From an uncultured Woeseiaceae bacterium (GTDB lineage: Bacteria; Pseudomonadota; Gammaproteobacteria; Steroidobacterales; Woeseiaceae): a stretch of DNA of 64,000 nucleotides. The DNA lies in contig CAJJBK010000007.1 of assembly GCA_905182415.1 (NCBI GenBank), forward strand, positions 1-64,000. Direction: 5' to 3'. This document shows positions 16,666-24,105 of this stretch, piece after piece (position 1 is the stretch's first letter; every line of letters starts with the position of its first letter). The position numbers and the translations under genes are program-made. The notes beneath the pieces were generated by a model that was given only the letters and a program-made list of their open reading frames with translations, had not been told where the DNA came from and did no database searches.

Positions 16666-17679
16666 CTAAACTTCCATATCAGTATGATATTGACCCAAAT
16701 GAGCAAGGCTATTTAATTTCGCTCGCTTTAAGAAAGCTTCTTGTCCTGCTGAGAAATTTTCTTCTTTACCTTGCCATGCATTTAAAGGTGCAGCTTGAAG
16801 CGCTCTTCCATATGAGAATGAGAGTTCCCAAGGCAGATTACCTATTTTATTCATTAAATCCAGATGCTCTGTTGCTTCTTCTGAAGTTTGACCTCCCGAT
16901 AAAAAAGCAATTCCTGCAACATTTTCGGGTACATGTTTTTTCAAACACCTCACCGTGGCTTCAGCAACCTCAGAAGGAGTCGCACGATTTTGCGCATCAC
17001 TTCCAGAAATAACCATATTGGGCTTTAGAATAATACCTTCCAAGGCAACACCGTGTTCTTCAAGTTCTTGGAAAACAATATCAAGAGCGGCACTTGTAAC
17101 TTCCTCACATCTTTCAATGCTGTGAGTTCCATCCATGAGCACTTCAGGCTCAACAATAGGCACGATATTATGTTCTTGGCATAATGCAGCGTAACGAGCA
17201 AGTGCATGTGCATTAGCTTTTAAACAATACGCTGAAGGTATTGTGCCACTCACGTTGATTACGGCCCGCCATTTAGCAAATTTAGCGCCAAGAGAAGCGT
17301 ATTCCGCCAATCGATCTCGAAGTCCATCAAGGCCTTCTGTAACTGTTTCATCCTCAAATCCAGCTAATGCTTTTGCTCCTGCATCGACTTTAATTCCTGC
17401 GAGCATGCCCAGATTATTCAAATATGCTGGAAACGGAGTTCCGTCAGTTCTTGATTGTCGAATAGTTTCATCGAACAAGATAACTCCACCTATAAAATCA
17501 GCTGCACCCTCAGTAATAAATAACATTTCACGATATCGCCGCCTAGATTCTTCAGTAGATTCAGTATTGATTGTATCGAATCGTTTTTTTATCGTTGGTG
17601 TACTCTCATCTGCAGCTAAGATACCTTTGCCGCTTGCAACCATTGCATTCGCAGTTGCCTTTAATACTTCTAGGTTCAT
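16666..17679 (-). CDS. Fructose-bisphosphate aldolase, class I
   Basis: 337 residues from the ATG at 17677-17679, with GGAG eight nt upstream; a GTG three codons before overlaps that site. The N-terminal KGILAADEST motif and the Schiff-base lysine in LEGIILKPNM (Lys219) mark the Schiff-base (class I, PF00274) aldolase. WRAVI and FLSGGQTSEEAT close the phosphate sites. It cleaves fructose 1,6-bisphosphate to dihydroxyacetone phosphate and glyceraldehyde 3-phosphate, or the reverse in gluconeogenesis. It needs no metal, unlike class II. Divergent from the SUF regulator. Confidence 0.94.
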   Translation of the reverse strand: MNLEVLKATANAMVASGKGILAADESTPTIKKRFDTINTESTEESRRRYREMLFITEGAADFIGGVILFDETIRQSRTDGTPFPAYLNNLGMLAGIKVDAGAKALAGFEDETVTEGLDGLRDRLAEYASLGAKFAKWRAVINVSGTIPSAYCLKANAHALARYAALCQEHNIVPIVEPEVLMDGTHSIERCEEVTSAALDIVFQELEEHGVALEGIILKPNMVISGSDAQNRATPSEVAEATVRCLKKHVPENVAGIAFLSGGQTSEEATEHLDLMNKIGNLPWELSFSYGRALQAAPLNAWQGKEENFSAGQEAFLKRAKLNSLAHLGQYHTDMEV

Positions 17680-17804
17680 TAAATCCACTCCATATTGTTA
17701 TATTGAATTAGGTTTTTGATTATATATTAAATAGTGCAGCTCGTTTTACAAAAAATTAGTTTGTATCTGCGTGTTTCAAAATTCTTATTTTAACTGGTCT
17801 ATCC

Positions 17805-17837
17805 GTTTAATTAGGACTAAAATAGTCCTAATTAAAC
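17805..17837. promoter_or_regulatory. 33-bp perfect inverted repeat, predicted operator of the SUF regulator
   Basis: Arms GTTTAATTAGGACTA (17805-17819) and TAGTCCTAATTAAAC (17823-17837) are exact reverse complements around AAA. The centre ends 17 nt before the regulator ATG and contains TAAAAT, which could be a -10 box, so binding would block initiation. Rrf2-family regulators bind such dyads and usually autoregulate. The core differs from the E. coli IscR type 2 site. Confidence 0.7.
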
Positions 17838-17854
17838 AAACCAAGAAATATCTT

Positions 17855-18322
17855 ATGATAAAGATCAGTAAATTAACGGATTACGGGACAGTAGTTTTGG
17901 CTGAATTGGCTAGTCATCAGCATGCACTTGCGAGTGCCTCAGAATTGGCAAGCTTAACCGGTATCAACTCACCCACCGTAAGTAAAATATTAAAAATACT
18001 CAATAAAGCCAATCTAATAGATTCCGTTAGAGGGGCAAATGGAGGGTATAAATTACTCCGCAAAGCTAATGAAATATCTGCCGCTGATGTCATTGATGCA
18101 TTTGAAGGTCCGTTGTCTATAACTGATTGCAGCTCATCAAAACAAAATTGCAAGCATGAACCCCAATGCTCAGTGGGGCCGGCTTGGCAAAATATCAATG
18201 CATCAATCAGGACATTATTAGAAGGCATAACAATTCTTGATCTGCAAAATAATAATTACCAGCATACTTCAATAACGAAATTTGCGGGTATGCCAATTAA
18301 CATAGAAACCAAGGTGCAATGA
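17855..18322 (+). CDS. Rrf2-family SUF operon regulator (Fe-S sensing)
   Basis: 155 residues from the ATG at 17855; a longer frame would read through the operator and is not credible. Winged-helix HTH at about 5-65 with [13 protein letters not shown] as recognition region. Three cysteines, Cys92, Cys99 and Cys105 ([14 protein letters not shown]), form the cluster-binding loop of IscR-like regulators. Best fit is the FeS assembly SUF system regulator group (TIGR02944), which heads sufBCDS operons in other Proteobacteria. It likely represses the operon when clusters are plentiful. Its stop overlaps the sufB start (ATGA). Confidence 0.92.
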
Positions 18323-19770
18323 TGTCTGCAAATAAAGATGAAATAAACAGTCTCGTAGAAAGTCGCTATAAGCACGGTTTTATCACTGATATTGAATCCG
18401 AATCTCTTCCACCTGGAATAAACGAAGATGTTATCAGGGCTATTTCAGCCAAGAAAAATGAACCAAAATTTATGCTGGACTGGCGCCTGAAATCTTACAA
18501 GCACTGGTTAACACTAAAAGAACCTACCTGGGCTCATGTAGACTATACGCCAATAAATTATCAAGAAATTTCATATTTCTCAGCGCCAAAATCTGATGCT
18601 GATCGCCCAAAAAGCTTAGATGAAGTTGATCCAAAATTACTTGAAACTTATGAAAAATTAGGTATTCCATTGCACGAGCGAGCAAGACTTGCAGGAGTGG
18701 CAGTAGATGCAGTTTTTGATAGTGTGTCTGTGGCCACCACTTTTAAAGATAAACTCTCTGAAGCAGGTGTCATTTTCTGCCCTTTTTCAGAAGCCGTCAT
18801 CAATCACCCAGAATTGATAAAAAAGTATCTAGGAAGTGTAGTGCCTTATAGAGATAACTTTTTTACTGCACTTAATTCGGCCGTATTTAGTGATGGTTCA
18901 TTCGTCTATATACCTAAAGGTGTTAGATGCCCAATGGAGTTATCAACTTATTTTCGTATTAATGCTGCCAATACCGGTCAATTTGAACGCACGCTTATCA
19001 TCGCGGACGAAGGCAGTCATGTAAGCTACCTGGAAGGCTGTACAGCACCAATGCGTGATGAAAATCAACTCCATGCAGCGGTTGTTGAGCTCGTTGCCCT
19101 AAAAGATGCTGAAATCAAATATTCAACTGTACAAAACTGGTACCCGGGTGATGAGAATGGCGTAGGCGGGATATATAACTTTGTAACAAAAAGAGGTGAC
19201 TGTCGTGAGGCTAATTCAAAGATATCATGGACACAGGTTGAAACCGGTTCAGCAATAACTTGGAAGTACCCGAGTTGTATCCTGAGGGGTGATAATTCCG
19301 TCGGTGAATTTTACTCTGTAGCCGTCGCGAATAATCGACAACAAGCCGACACTGGAACAAAAATGATTCACATCGGCAACAACACAAAAAGCACTATAGT
19401 TTCAAAAGGTATTTCCGCCGGTCATGCTCAAAATGCATACAGAGGCTTAGTTAGAGTAATGCCTCAAGCAAATAACGCAAGAAACCATACCCAGTGTGAT
19501 TCTTTACTTATTGGTGGAACTTGCGGTGCTCATACCTTCCCTTACATAGAAGGAAAAAATCCATCTGCAATTATAGAGCATGAGGCCACTACCTCGAAGA
19601 TTTCGGAAGATCAGCTCTTTTATTGCAAACAACGTGGGATTGAAGAAGAAGATGCCGTGAATATGATTGTAAATGGCTTCTGCAAGGATGTTTTCAAAAA
19701 ACTGCCAATGGAATTTGCGGTAGAAGCACAAGCGCTTCTTAACGTTAGTCTTGAAGGCGCGGTAGGTTAA
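18319..19770 (+). CDS. sufB: Fe-S cluster scaffold SufB
   Basis: 483 residues, standard SufB length. The beta-helix core contains [10 protein letters not shown]-like sequence ([19 protein letters not shown]) and the conserved late Cys of the cluster site near LFYCKQRGI. SufB with SufC and SufD forms the scaffold that accepts sulfur from SufS and builds Fe-S clusters, favoured under iron limitation or oxidative stress. Two ATGs (18319, 18322) lie after AAGG; either is possible. It is second in the operon and 24 nt before sufC. Confidence 0.96.
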
Positions 19771-19794: not shown

Positions 19795-20544
19795 ATGTTA
19801 GAAATAAAAAATTTACACGCTAAGGTAGCACAAACTAATATATTAAATGGATTGTCTCTCACCGTAAAAAAAGGTGAAGTTCATGCCATTATGGGGCCCA
19901 ATGGATCTGGTAAAAGCACGCTTGCTAGAATCATAGCCGGTTATGATGGTTATGATGTAACTGAGGGGGAAATCTCATACAACAACAAAAATCTCATGGA
20001 CCTACCTCCAGAAGAACGTTCACGGGAAGGGATATTTCTTGGCTTTCAGTATCCAGTTGAAATTCCTGGATTAAACAACACTCAATTTCTCAAAGCTGCC
20101 TTAAATGCCAAAAGAAAGCATCTCGGTATGGAAGAAATGGATGCGTTTGAATTCCTAAAGATAGCACGTGATGCTATTAAGAAACTTGAAATAGATCCAA
20201 GTTTCTTAAATAGAGGAGTTAATGAGGGATTTTCAGGTGGTGAGAAAAAACGAAATGAAATCCTTCAAATGACTATCTTGGAACCAAGTATTGCAATTCT
20301 AGACGAAACAGATTCTGGTCTTGATATAGATGCACTCAAAGTGGTAGCAAAAGGTGTTAATGAATTTCGCAATCCCGATAATGCGGTTATTCTTGTTACT
20401 CATTACCAGCGTCTCTTAGAATATATCGAACCAGATAAGGTGCACGTTTTATCAGAAGGAAAGATTGTTCGTTCGGGAGATAAGTCTTTGGCGATAGAAT
20501 TAGAAAAAACTGGATATGCTAAAGAAAAGGATAACGAAAAATGA
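19795..20544 (+). CDS. sufC: SUF ATPase SufC
   Basis: 249 residues. ABC-type ATPase with Walker A GPNGSGKS at 34-41, signature FSGGEKKRNE, Walker B AILDETDSGLDID and the H-loop VTHYQR. The SufC-specific KKRNEILQM sequence after the signature is present. It supplies ATP-driven conformational change to the SufBCD scaffold in the cytosol. The start ATG has GTGGGGAA just upstream. Its stop overlaps the sufD start by 4 nt, consistent with stoichiometric translation. Confidence 0.96.
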   Translation: MLEIKNLHAKVAQTNILNGLSLTVKKGEVHAIMGPNGSGKSTLARIIAGYDGYDVTEGEISYNNKNLMDLPPEERSREGIFLGFQYPVEIPGLNNTQFLKAALNAKRKHLGMEEMDAFEFLKIARDAIKKLEIDPSFLNRGVNEGFSGGEKKRNEILQMTILEPSIAILDETDSGLDIDALKVVAKGVNEFRNPDNAVILVTHYQRLLEYIEPDKVHVLSEGKIVRSGDKSLAIELEKTGYAKEKDNEK

Positions 20545-21812
20545 GTGCTCAAATCAACTTTGAGCTATTGTCTTCAGCTGCCAAAAAACTAATTCAAGGT
20601 GAGCTATCTGACACTAGAGTCAATGCACTTTCCAATTTTAAGGTTTCAGAGATGCCTTCTACAAAAAACGAGGAATGGCAATATACTGATATAAGTAATA
20701 TTTATGCATTATGTGAAAAATCATTCCATGAACCATCAAAAGAAATTAAATCTTTAACTAACAAAGAAAATACCATTGCTAATGAAATCGACGCTTATTG
20801 GATAATTATTAAAAATGGCACCATCGATATCATGGAAACAAAAAGATTACAAAAAATCGGGATTCATGTATCTTTGCTCTCAAAAAATCTTGATGACACT
20901 GAAGTACTTATTGATGATTCACTTTGCAGTTTGAACGCTGCATTGATGCATGATGCCATAAAAATTACAGTTTCTAGTGGTGTTGAGAGCGATAAACCTA
21001 TTGGTATACTCTTCGAGAATGATATAAACCTAAATAATTATGTCAGTAATTTTCGATGCATTATTGAAGTAAAAGATAATGCCACCGTGAGTATAATTCA
21101 TGCTCACACAGCAAAAATTCAAGCTCCTCATTTCACAAACTCTGTGGTACAGATGGATATAGGGGAAAATAGTCATATAGAATATTTGAGATTACAAGAT
21201 TTCTCGGTCCATCAGACTTTGATAGAAAAATCAGTTGCTAATCTCGGTATCAATGCAAACCTTAACTACACTAGTGTTGATATAGGTGCTCAATTAATGC
21301 GAGCAGATATAGTTGTTAACTTTAATGAAAAACATGCAAATGCAAATATAAATGGAGTTTATATTGCAGGAAATAATCAACATATTGATAATCATATCCT
21401 AGCAAACCATTTTATTGGCTCATCAAAAAGCAGTCAAAATTTCTACGGTGTAATTGGAGGAAATGGCCGGTGCGTATTTAACGGTAAAGCTCTTATATGT
21501 GAGGCAGCCATTAACTCAAATGCAAATCAATTTAACCATAATCTGTTGATCAGTGAAAATGCTGAAATCAATACCAAGCCCGAACTTGAAATATACACAG
21601 ACGATGTCGCATGCAGTCATGGTACGACCGTTGGTCAACTCGATGAAAACGCTCTATTTTATATGCAATCAAGAGGTATTGATGAAGTTGTAGCTCAGCA
21701 ATTGCTAACAAAAACATTTATTACTAGAATTTTAAATGAGGTAAATATTCCCTCCACAAAAGATTTTATAGAAAATTTAATTACAGATAAATTACGAGTA
21801 TTAACACAATGA
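20541..21812 (+). CDS. sufD: SUF scaffold protein SufD
   Basis: 423 residues. The N-terminal part is typical of SufD (NEEWQYTDISNIYAL) and the C-terminal half shares the SufB beta-helix fold, ending in DVACSHGTTVGQLDENALFY. A conserved His (CSHGTT) helps assemble the cluster at the SufB-SufD interface. It lacks the SufB cysteine set. It overlaps both neighbours by 4 nt (ATGA), in the usual B-C-D-S order. Confidence 0.95.
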   Translation: MSAQINFELLSSAAKKLIQGELSDTRVNALSNFKVSEMPSTKNEEWQYTDISNIYALCEKSFHEPSKEIKSLTNKENTIANEIDAYWIIIKNGTIDIMETKRLQKIGIHVSLLSKNLDDTEVLIDDSLCSLNAALMHDAIKITVSSGVESDKPIGILFENDINLNNYVSNFRCIIEVKDNATVSIIHAHTAKIQAPHFTNSVVQMDIGENSHIEYLRLQDFSVHQTLIEKSVANLGINANLNYTSVDIGAQLMRADIVVNFNEKHANANINGVYIAGNNQHIDNHILANHFIGSSKSSQNFYGVIGGNGRCVFNGKALICEAAINSNANQFNHNLLISENAEINTKPELEIYTDDVACSHGTTVGQLDENALFYMQSRGIDEVVAQQLLTKTFITRILNEVNIPSTKDFIENLITDKLRVLTQ

Positions 21813-23065
21813 ATCTCTCTTTTAATGAGAAAAATCAAATAGCTGATAATAGCCAGCTTGAACTTTTACGAAAAGATTTCCCAACCATCAATCAGGAAAT
21901 TAATAAGTACCCTCTCGTCTATTTGGATAGCGCGGCTTCAAGTCAAATGCCGCAACAAGTCATCGATGAAATCTCTCGTTACCAAAGTCAAGATCACTCA
22001 AATGTTCACCGTGGTATCCATACCTTGAGCCATAGAGCAACGGAGGTTTATGAAACATCTAGACAAAATATTTGTGAGTTCATTAACGCGAAAAATACTA
22101 ATGAGATAATATTTACCAGCGGTACTACAGACTCCATTAATCTTGTGGCAAATAGTTACTGTAAGCCCAAGCTTGATCCAAGCAAAAAAATTCTTATCAG
22201 TCATTTAGAACATCATTCAAATATAGTGCCTTGGCAGCTAATTTGCGAGCAAACTGGAGCCAGTCTTATCGTTGCTCCAATTGACAATAATGGTGAAATA
22301 ATAACCGAGCAATTAATAGATATGATCGATTCAAATGTAGTTTTGGTAGCTATCTCTCATATATCAAATGCGCTTGGCTCTGTGACCTCATTGAATAAAA
22401 TTATAGATGCTGCTCACCAGCATGAAGTTCCCGTATTAGTGGATGGTGCCCAAGCAATTTCACATATGAAAATAGATATCCAAGCTCTTAATGCAGATTT
22501 TTATGCTTTTTCAGGTCATAAAATGTTAGGACCTACTGGTATTGGGATATTATATGGAAAAGAACGCTTATTAGAAGATATGCCTCCATACCAAGGTGGT
22601 GGGGATATGATACTGGAAGTTAAATTCACAGGCACCGTATACAATGATTTGCCTTATAAATTTGAAGCTGGTACACCAAATATATCTGGTGCTGCAGGAC
22701 TTGGCGCTGCAATTGACTATCTGAATCAGGCTGGAATGCATAATATTGAAGCACATGAAAATATATTGCTCAATAAAATGATCGCGGATTTGCAGAAAGT
22801 TGATGGTGTTGAATTAATAGGCAAAGCAGAAAACCAAGTGGCGGTTCAATCGTTTACCATAAAAGATATTCATTCTCATGATATTGGTACAATTTTAGAT
22901 CACCAAGGAATTGCGATTCGTACAGGGCATCATTGCGCCATGCCTGTAATGGAGTTTTTTGGCCTGCCAGGAACAGCACGAGCATCATTATCGATATATA
23001 ATAATGAGGAAGATATCGATCGCTTTATCAAAGGACTTGATAAAGTAATTGAAATTTTTGCATAA
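21809..23065 (+). CDS. sufS: Cysteine desulfurase SufS
   Basis: 418 residues, group II desulfurase. The PLP lysine is in FSGHKMLGPTG (Lys238) and the persulfide cysteine in RTGHHCAMP (Cys376), with the short loop of SufS-type enzymes. NVHRGIHTLS near 65-74 and SHLEHHSNIVPW near 131-142 are family hallmarks. It removes sulfur from L-cysteine and passes it to SufU. The start overlaps sufD (ATGA) and the TAA shares one base with the sufU ATG. Confidence 0.96.
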   Translation: MNLSFNEKNQIADNSQLELLRKDFPTINQEINKYPLVYLDSAASSQMPQQVIDEISRYQSQDHSNVHRGIHTLSHRATEVYETSRQNICEFINAKNTNEIIFTSGTTDSINLVANSYCKPKLDPSKKILISHLEHHSNIVPWQLICEQTGASLIVAPIDNNGEIITEQLIDMIDSNVVLVAISHISNALGSVTSLNKIIDAAHQHEVPVLVDGAQAISHMKIDIQALNADFYAFSGHKMLGPTGIGILYGKERLLEDMPPYQGGGDMILEVKFTGTVYNDLPYKFEAGTPNISGAAGLGAAIDYLNQAGMHNIEAHENILLNKMIADLQKVDGVELIGKAENQVAVQSFTIKDIHSHDIGTILDHQGIAIRTGHHCAMPVMEFFGLPGTARASLSIYNNEEDIDRFIKGLDKVIEIFA

Positions 23066-23547
23066 TGAAAAAAAATAATTCAGAGAATAAATCGCTCAAA
23101 GAACTTTATCGACAGTTGATAATTCATCACGCAAAAAATCCTCTAAATTTCGGTAAGTTATCAAATAACTCTTTACTCTCTGAGGGGATTAACCCATTGT
23201 GCGGTGATAAAATTCGTATTTATCTCAAAATTAATGAAGCAGATACAATTGAGAACCTGACCTTTGAAGGAACGGGTTGTGCTATCTCAATAGCCTCGGC
23301 GTCGTTGATGACCTCAACATTACTAAACATGAAAAAATACCAAGCAAATCAATATGCACTTGATCTAATCTCTAATCTTAATGAGTCCAAATCTCAGGAA
23401 GGTCAACAACCGATGATGGACTCTCAAGAAATTCACGCCCTAGAAGGCGTAAAAGATTTTCCATCAAGAATAAAGTGTGCCACATTGAGTTGGCAAACAT
23501 TTATATCGGCTCTGAATAATAACAAAATAACCACTACGGAAAAATAA
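23065..23547 (+). CDS. sufU: Sulfur-transfer protein SufU
   Basis: 160 residues. The three conserved cysteines with the neighbouring Asp are in NPLCGD (Cys46, Asp48), EGTGCAIS (Cys72) and IKCATLSW (Cys138), the zinc/sulfur-binding set of SufU and IscU. SufU partners SufS as a sulfur acceptor, replacing SufE. The SufU-specific 18-20 residue insert is filled here by a variable stretch (SNLNESKSQEGQQ). The ATG overlaps the sufS stop by one base. sufE and sufA are not in the operon. Confidence 0.92.
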   Translation: MKKNNSENKSLKELYRQLIIHHAKNPLNFGKLSNNSLLSEGINPLCGDKIRIYLKINEADTIENLTFEGTGCAISIASASLMTSTLLNMKKYQANQYALDLISNLNESKSQEGQQPMMDSQEIHALEGVKDFPSRIKCATLSWQTFISALNNNKITTTEK

Positions 23548-23553
23548 ATCACT

Positions 23554-24105
23554 ATGTTTGGACATACTAACGAACCATTTGTTGTAACAAGAGATGTAAA
23601 AGCAGTCATCATACCTGCCGGAGAAGTACTACAGTTAAGAGAAGGAACTTCTGGTTTTATCACGCAGTCTCTTGGTGGTAGCTTCACCATCTATATTGAA
23701 GGTAACTTATTTAGAATTTCAGGATCAGATGCCGATGCTTTGGGTAAGGAAATTGAACCGCCCCCAGAAATCCCAAAGAATGCGACTGATAAAGATATTG
23801 AAGATATTGTTTGGAGCCAACTCAGGACATGTTATGACCCTGAAATACCAATAAATATAGTAGATCTAGGTTTGATATATCGTTGCGATATAACAACTCT
23901 AGAGAATAGCAAAAGAAGTGTCTCTATTGATATGACACTAACAGCAATAGGTTGTGGTATGGGTGAAATCTTAGTTGAAGATGCTAGAGACAAAGTAGCA
24001 ATCATTCCAACAATTGATGATGTTGAGGTTGAATTAGTGTTTGATCCACCTTGGAGTCAAGAAATGATGTCTGACGAAGCAAGACTTCAAACGGGCATGA
24101 TGTAA
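23554..24105 (+). CDS. sufT: Fe-S assembly protein SufT (DUF59/MIP18 family)
   Basis: 183 residues in two parts: an N-terminal domain (MFGHTNEPFVVTRDVKAV) typical of the long SufT form and the DUF59 domain (DPEIPINIVDLGLIY with TAIGCGMGEILVEDA, Cys at about 135). SufT helps mature Fe-S proteins in organisms with SUF systems, and the exact step is not settled. It closes the SUF operon, six nt after sufU. The fusion to the N-terminal domain matches sufT genes in other SUF operons. Confidence 0.9.
   Translation: MFGHTNEPFVVTRDVKAVIIPAGEVLQLREGTSGFITQSLGGSFTIYIEGNLFRISGSDADALGKEIEPPPEIPKNATDKDIEDIVWSQLRTCYDPEIPINIVDLGLIYRCDITTLENSKRSVSIDMTLTAIGCGMGEILVEDARDKVAIIPTIDDVEVELVFDPPWSQEMMSDEARLQTGMM

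Follow-up and report, generated by a model that had tools for sequence, protein, structure and literature searches.

The window (the whole stretch of DNA analysed, 64 kb) contains a gene for an Rrf2-family regulator, which heads a sufBCDSUT operon (Table 1). Neighbouring genes of this operon overlap or are at most 24 nt apart, and the suf genes adjoin the regulator, which is the genomic context given for the family model TIGR02944. On the minus strand, at 16666-17688, lies a divergent neighbour whose translation reads, by eye, like a class I fructose-bisphosphate aldolase. The clade seems to be without the ISC scaffold, since the iscU model TIGR01999, the one ISC model searched, was over its cut-off in none of the 60 genomes of the relatives' set, that of the window included. 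The best of the weak matches in this last genome was sufU itself (43.5 bits), followed by one on contig 47 (33.7 bits).

Table 1. Coordinates of the operator, the promoter-like hexamers, and the genes of the suf operon in the window
Feature	Position	Strand	Basis
-35-like hexamer TGGTCT (17-nt spacing to the -10-like hexamer)	17795..17800	+	T at -26, G at -24
Perfect 33-bp dyad, with AAA between 15-bp arms	17805..17837	.	Exact inverted repeat
Conserved 25-bp operator core AATTAGGACTAAAATAGTCCTAATT	17809..17833	.	Column conservation, 33 close-set and 68 class-level loci
-10-like hexamer TAAAAT within the operator	17818..17823	+	Recurrence in sense; role suggested by position
Rrf2-family SUF regulator (TIGR02944), 155 aa, Cys92/Cys99/Cys105, Asp9	17855..18322	+	Profile score, alignment
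sufB	18319..19770	+	TIGR01980, NF008773 over cut-off
sufC	19795..20544	+	TIGR01978 over cut-off
sufD	20541..21812	+	TIGR01981 over cut-off
sufS (SufS family cysteine desulfurase)	21809..23065	+	TIGR01979 over cut-off
sufU	23065..23547	+	TIGR01994 over cut-off
sufT (long form)	23554..24105	+	TIGR03406 over cut-off

The region between the divergent genes holds an exact inverted repeat, GTTTAATTAGGACTA-AAA-TAGTCCTAATTAAAC, in which two 15-bp arms flank the AAA centre. The next pair outward (C/A) is a mismatch, and a gap of 17 nt separates the end of the dyad from the ATG of the regulator; the sequence-only reading had described both the repeat and its distance from the regulator in these terms, and both descriptions were exact. 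In a scan limited to spacers of 3-8 nt, no other perfect inverted repeat with arms of at least 12 bp was found in the 64 kb. The expected count of 15-bp arms around a 3-nt spacer in a sequence of this length is about 1.7e-4. The longest arm across 40 order-1 simulations of the window was 13 bp, and it was reached in one of the 40.

The full 33 bp is a local extension, because only the inner 25 bp is kept in relatives. From ±13 to ±20, each pair is complementary in 8 to 16 of the 33 loci of the close set (L010-L039, L041, L042, and L116; this set takes in L039, from another family of the order, and leaves out L107, from the same family). The conserved block in the close set is AAATAGGACTAAAATAGTCCTnWTT. 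The 68 class-level loci show this block too, in a weaker form and with either G or T at -6. At -7, G occurs in all of the close-set loci and in 96% of the class-level loci. The consensus from 135 sites is AAATAGGACTAAAATAGTCCTCTTT, and the letters at ±6 among these sites are G..C in 61, T..A in 35, T..C in 22, G..A in 12, and others in 5. Within the genus, the core varies to GGACTAATATAGTAC (L012) and GTACCAATATAGTAC (L013).

The operator seems to overlap the promoter, because its TAAAAT centre is located 17 nt past a conserved -35-like box. The centre was found in the sense orientation at 29 of the 33 close-set loci and at 33 of the 102 other loci. Upstream of it in the close set, T at -26 and G at -24 were each found in 30 of the 33 loci, with the 17-nt spacer, and T at -26 also occurs in 62/102 of the others. 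At these other loci, a match to TTGACA at 5 or 6 of 6 positions, 16-18 nt away, was found in 13/102, as against 0/102 on the mirrored strand. This arrangement suggests a sigma-70-type promoter with its -10 hexamer inside the operator, and the "-10-like" centre of the sequence-only reading agrees with it, the role of the hexamer being suggested by its position. It should be mentioned that the -35-like hexamer of the window is a poor match to TTGACA and that a consensus scan of 17650-17900 called no sigma-70-type promoter. In addition, TANNNT at the centre is about equally common on the other strand and in sense (31 vs 29 of the 33 close-set loci; 56 vs 42 of the other 102). This means that TANNNT alone gives no direction; direction is indicated by the letters at the centre taken together with the upstream box.

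The occurrence of the operator was counted at 142 regulator loci. The relatives' set supplied 53 of them, and 53 of its 60 genomes are over the TIGR02944 cut-off; a class sample supplied 74, with 78 of its 276 genomes above the same threshold and four of these already in the collection; the other 15 come from named genomes (10 of them scored, all 10 over the cut-off). L040 and L011 are one locus, and L040 was therefore dropped. Three partial genes (that of G035, and a second piece each in G017 and G025) were excluded before counting, together with six weak paralogues and the class-sample matches below the cut-off, save nine comparison loci (L198-L206), of which L202 was dropped, having no tblastn hit.

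The best match to GKACYN5RGTMC in the 250 nt upstream scored 10 of 10 at 109 loci, 9 at 26, 8 at six, and 7 at one; that is, GKAC(Y)-N5-(R)GTMC is present at 9 or more of its 10 positions at 135 of the 142 loci, with a pattern derived from the very loci counted, a bias which the following controls limit and do not remove. Order-1 shuffles of the same upstream DNA scored 10 in 3/2840 and at least 9 in 127/2840 cases. Coding-sequence controls (250 nt, from +300 to +550 of the gene start, inside or after the gene) scored 10 in none and at least 9 in 5 of 140. Upstream of 45 Rrf2 genes whose products have a YLEQ-type helix, none scored 10 and one scored 9. Seven distant Rrf2 loci belonging to neither group (L058, L064, L066, L067, L069, L081, and L093) were left uncounted; their best scores are 6 to 8. 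The 15-mer is located at a median of 26 nt from the aligned start, which is also its distance in the window.

A gene for SufB follows the regulator on the same strand at 137 of the 142 loci; the five where it was not seen are L031, L116, and L133, for which at most 560 nt past the start was fetched, and L174 and L175, with about 1400 nt. The sequence-only reading had staked itself on the dyad recurring before the suf operons of relatives, and it does so: the site is present at 132 of the 137 sufB-linked loci. The seven loci without the pattern are L174, L175, and the sufB-linked L055, L126, L138, L180, and L196. L174 and L175, both over the TIGR02944 cut-off, have neither sufB within about 1400 nt nor the dyad, and are perhaps repurposed members of the family. 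The alphaproteobacterial member L055 carries TTGACTAAACTAGTCTAG 57 nt before the regulator start, which is nearer an IscR type-1 site.

The exact core GGACTANNNTAGTCC occurs in 27 of the 60 genomes, that of the window included, once in each, and all 27 sites are located 17-74 nt before the aligned start of the regulator. Among the 33 genomes without it, six (G002, G004, G006, G008, G031, and G053) have no regulator match at all, and five of these six are less than 90% complete. A looser form, AGKACTANNNTRGTMCT, has matches in 26/60 genomes, one of which (G027:C103:83062) is away from the regulator. In the genome of the window, the 15-bp core was found 18 times on the forward and 23 times on the reverse strand when up to three mismatches were allowed, as against 28 and 40 times for a reversed control pattern, and the next two best sites (two mismatches) fall within long open frames. 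A wider regulon was rejected on these grounds, and the search before other genes that the sequence-only reading had proposed gave no further site to rely on: no second target was supported with the 15-bp core at three mismatches or fewer. The single exact site per genome, together with mismatched cores no commoner than the control, points to a dedicated operator, not a regulon.

The regulator scores 150.8 bits against TIGR02944, the model for regulators of SUF-system Fe-S assembly (cut-off 110.65), and stays far below the cut-offs of the IscR model TIGR02010 (78.2 bits; 207.55), the NsrR model (63.4 bits; 182), and the RirA model (65.7 bits; 193). A sequence search against solved structures gave 4cic as its best match (E 1.9e-16), an entry with the name BadM/Rrf2 family regulator, and its nearest named record is from a Woeseiaceae MAG, with 88% identity. 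It is the one Rrf2 protein found in its genome, an assembly of 73 contigs and 1.8 Mb with a completeness of 99%. A quick tree (188 rows) has all 142 SUF regulators on one side of a branch, apart from IscR and the YLEQ-type proteins; the SH-aLRT value of this branch is 93, below the star level of the program (95). The place of NsrR in this tree is unsure because of its long branch. The Rrf2 proteins of L068 and L071, titled Corallococcus sp., group with Clostridia in the tree, and the names of these two records are probably wrong.

Cys92, Cys99, and Cys105 are present at all 142 loci, with Asp at residue 9 in 140 of them and Glu in the other two. In the alignment with the K-12 sequences, Asp9 falls on Asp8 of E. 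coli NsrR and on an Arg of E. coli IscR. None of the six commonest letters (138/142) at the place of IscR His107 is His, and the regulator of the window has Gly there. This means that the regulator carries the NsrR-type Cys3-Asp ligand pattern; of the IscR Cys3-His set (C92, C98, C104, and H107), it has the cysteines, as Cys92/99/105, and no His. Asp8 is described as the fourth ligand of the [4Fe-4S] cluster in Streptomyces NsrR, in the part of PMC5411485 available to us, and its alignment with Asp9 therefore predicts a [4Fe-4S] sensor. The recognition-helix residues S40, Y41, E43, and Q44 of IscR are replaced by P, T, S, and K. The same part of PMC5411485 names Ser40, Glu43, and Gln44 as the IscR residues that read the DNA, and it reports that E43A enables type-1 binding by the apo form. 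Since Glu43 is missing in the regulator, the control of binding by the cluster would not be simply transferable from IscR.

The closest known system is RisR of Myxococcus xanthus, which was set beside this regulator by its published description (PMC9973013, available in part). According to that description, the RisR operator is T(t/g)GAC-N7-GTCC(t/a), nearly the AGGAC-N7-GTCCT of the window, and footprints on GAC-N7-GTC dyads cover about 30 bp. The operator criterion of the IS6 group to which RisR belongs, GAC-N7-GTC flanked by AT-rich DNA, describes AATTAGGACTAAAATAGTCCTAATT as well. RisR is also an Fe-S-binding Rrf2 regulator, its operator overlaps promoter hexamers, and the gene order risR-sufBCDSUT corresponds to rrf2-sufB-C-D-S-U-T here. 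It is stated to repress as the holo form, an apo-locked variant being without repression, and changes in the half-sites raised reporter expression 3- and 4-fold. Unlike what was found here, RisR also represses an isc operon, and its cysteines are at 92, 102, and 108, whereas those of the present regulator are at 92, 99, and 105.

NsrR resembles the regulator in its three cysteines with an N-terminal Asp and in having Lys where the helix of IscR has Gln44, but it is a nitric oxide sensor, as far as PMC5411485 was available. SufR of cyanobacteria and actinobacteria is likewise a suf autorepressor that carries an Fe-S cluster and has a perfect palindrome as its site, given as CAAC-N6-GTTG in the available part of PMC8593673; it differs in its operator and in belonging to another protein family, for which the descriptions give DeoR or an ArsR-like helix-turn-helix. 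Two alphaproteobacterial cousins, to judge from partial accounts, have large regulons: IscR of R. sphaeroides, whose Iron-Rhodo-box (PMC4618611) may overlap this operator, and IscR of Caulobacter, with two motifs.

These observations make it highly likely that the dyad serves the Rrf2-type SUF regulator (TIGR02944) as an autoregulatory operator; the regulator would be an autorepressor and an Fe-S-sensing dimer. The autoregulatory role that the sequence-only reading had proposed is supported by the position of the site, the overlap with the promoter, and the single occurrence per genome, with binding by the regulator as the presumed link. Repression and the sensing of cluster supply are inferred because of the operator position and the RisR precedent. 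A dimer of the regulator, most likely loaded with an Fe-S cluster, would read the two GGACTA half-sites. With TAAAAT at the operator centre and the -35-like box preceding it by 17 nt, a holo dimer bound there would lie over the -10 region and block RNA polymerase, so that rrf2-sufBCDSUT would be repressed. When the cluster supply falls, through lack of iron or oxidative damage, the cluster would be lost, the dimer would release the DNA, and the SUF machinery would be made. The regulator would thereby close a negative feedback loop, with this operon as its one target.

The dyad might instead be an ordinary IscR type-1 box, with the regulator being simply the IscR of this organism. The two proteins are of the same superfamily, and E. 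coli IscR is likewise an Rrf2 regulator encoded by the first gene of its own operon and repressing itself through a dyad. In addition, the central 13 bp of the operator is a full match to type 1, GACTR-WWW-YAGTC. Against the whole type-1 consensus ATASYYGACTRWWWYAGTCRRSTAT, however, the operator agrees at 15/25 positions, 13 of the central 13 and 2 of the outer 12. The difference from the E. coli site claimed in the sequence-only reading was thus found at ±7 and outward, whereas the centre is identical. Type-1 sites have Y at -7, where the present sites almost invariably have G. On a matrix of the 135 sites, the sites of the E. coli iscR promoter score at most 2.9 and the members, which built the matrix, 13.3 to 39.1; upstream of the IscR-type paralogues L198, L199, L200, and L203-L206 (L201 was left out), the best scores are -18.8 to -4.1. 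The protein also argues against IscR, with its profile scores, the replaced helix residues (SYLEQ in E. coli IscR), and the missing His107 ligand. Moreover, E. coli IscR is described as acting on more than 40 genes, its own operon being isc (PMC5411485, in part). We therefore consider this explanation improbable.

It is very improbable that the site serves another regulator of the suf operon or of the divergent gene, for instance one like Fur or OxyR, which are examples of suf regulators in E. coli. Published accounts, as far as available, place the E. coli suf operon under several regulators, and the site is indeed between divergent genes. A global regulator would, however, have many sites, whereas the exact core occurs once per genome and always at this regulator, and the site accompanies the TIGR02944 gene across the class sample. 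Also very improbable is an action of the dyad as RNA, in which a hairpin of the suf leader would serve for attenuation or transcript stability. Arms of 15 bp right before the open reading frame could form such a hairpin, but the -10-like box, if used, would place the start of transcription in or after the 3' arm, giving a transcript without the 5' arm. A consensus terminator scan found no terminator. Furthermore, conservation tracks the letters of the half-sites at a fixed spacing, and pairing is not always kept: at ±1, ±3, ±6, ±8, and ±9, it was found in 0, 28, 27, 22, and 5 of the 33 close-set loci, respectively.

The operator of the SUF regulator is real and conserved, as judged by sequence comparison, and very probably functional. 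It provides the TIGR02944 family with a class-wide, testable operator, which is ordinary in kind. The suggestion of the sequence-only reading that the dyad could define the operator of this regulator group stands for 135 of the 142 loci; its shape has a precedent in the operator of RisR, as described in the available part of PMC9973013. In the records seen in part, a literature search returned no described TIGR02944 binding site and no paper with the term TIGR02944, and a study of Xanthomonas campestris IscR (2015) may already give such a site. The GAC-N7-GTC frame is common to IscR type-1 sites, RisR, and the TIGR02944 family, and the letter at ±7 is likely to be the discriminating one. The regulator predicts a [4Fe-4S]-type sensor in bacteria seemingly reliant on SUF. 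It is conceivable, though somewhat short of probable, that TIGR02944 represents a third kind of regulator of Fe-S supply in Proteobacteria beside IscR: a single-target SUF autorepressor with an NsrR-like Cys3-Asp set (probably holding a [4Fe-4S] cluster) and an operator AAATAG-G(G/T)AC-N7-GT(C/A)C around its own -10 box, acting as the sole Fe-S thermostat of lineages that lack the ISC scaffold.

Residue 43 of the recognition helix varies together with the letters at ±6: T/A at both positions accompanies Arg43 at 7/7 loci and Ser43 at 20/107. A tree-aware pair test found one usable pair on supported branches, and in a mutual-information ranking with no tree correction, residues 11, 131, and 127, which are outside the helix, were above residue 43. 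A specificity code at this residue is a lead. L126 and L138 of the Arg43 group carry a variant dyad, GATACTAAATTRGTATAG, with A..T at ±7 and T..A at ±6, which might reflect a possible shift of specificity. Finally, an element like TAGCATAGCAAA recurs 5' of the operator, about 80-110 nt before the regulator start, at the same-family loci L018, L023, L025, and L032, and it may be the promoter of a divergent gene.
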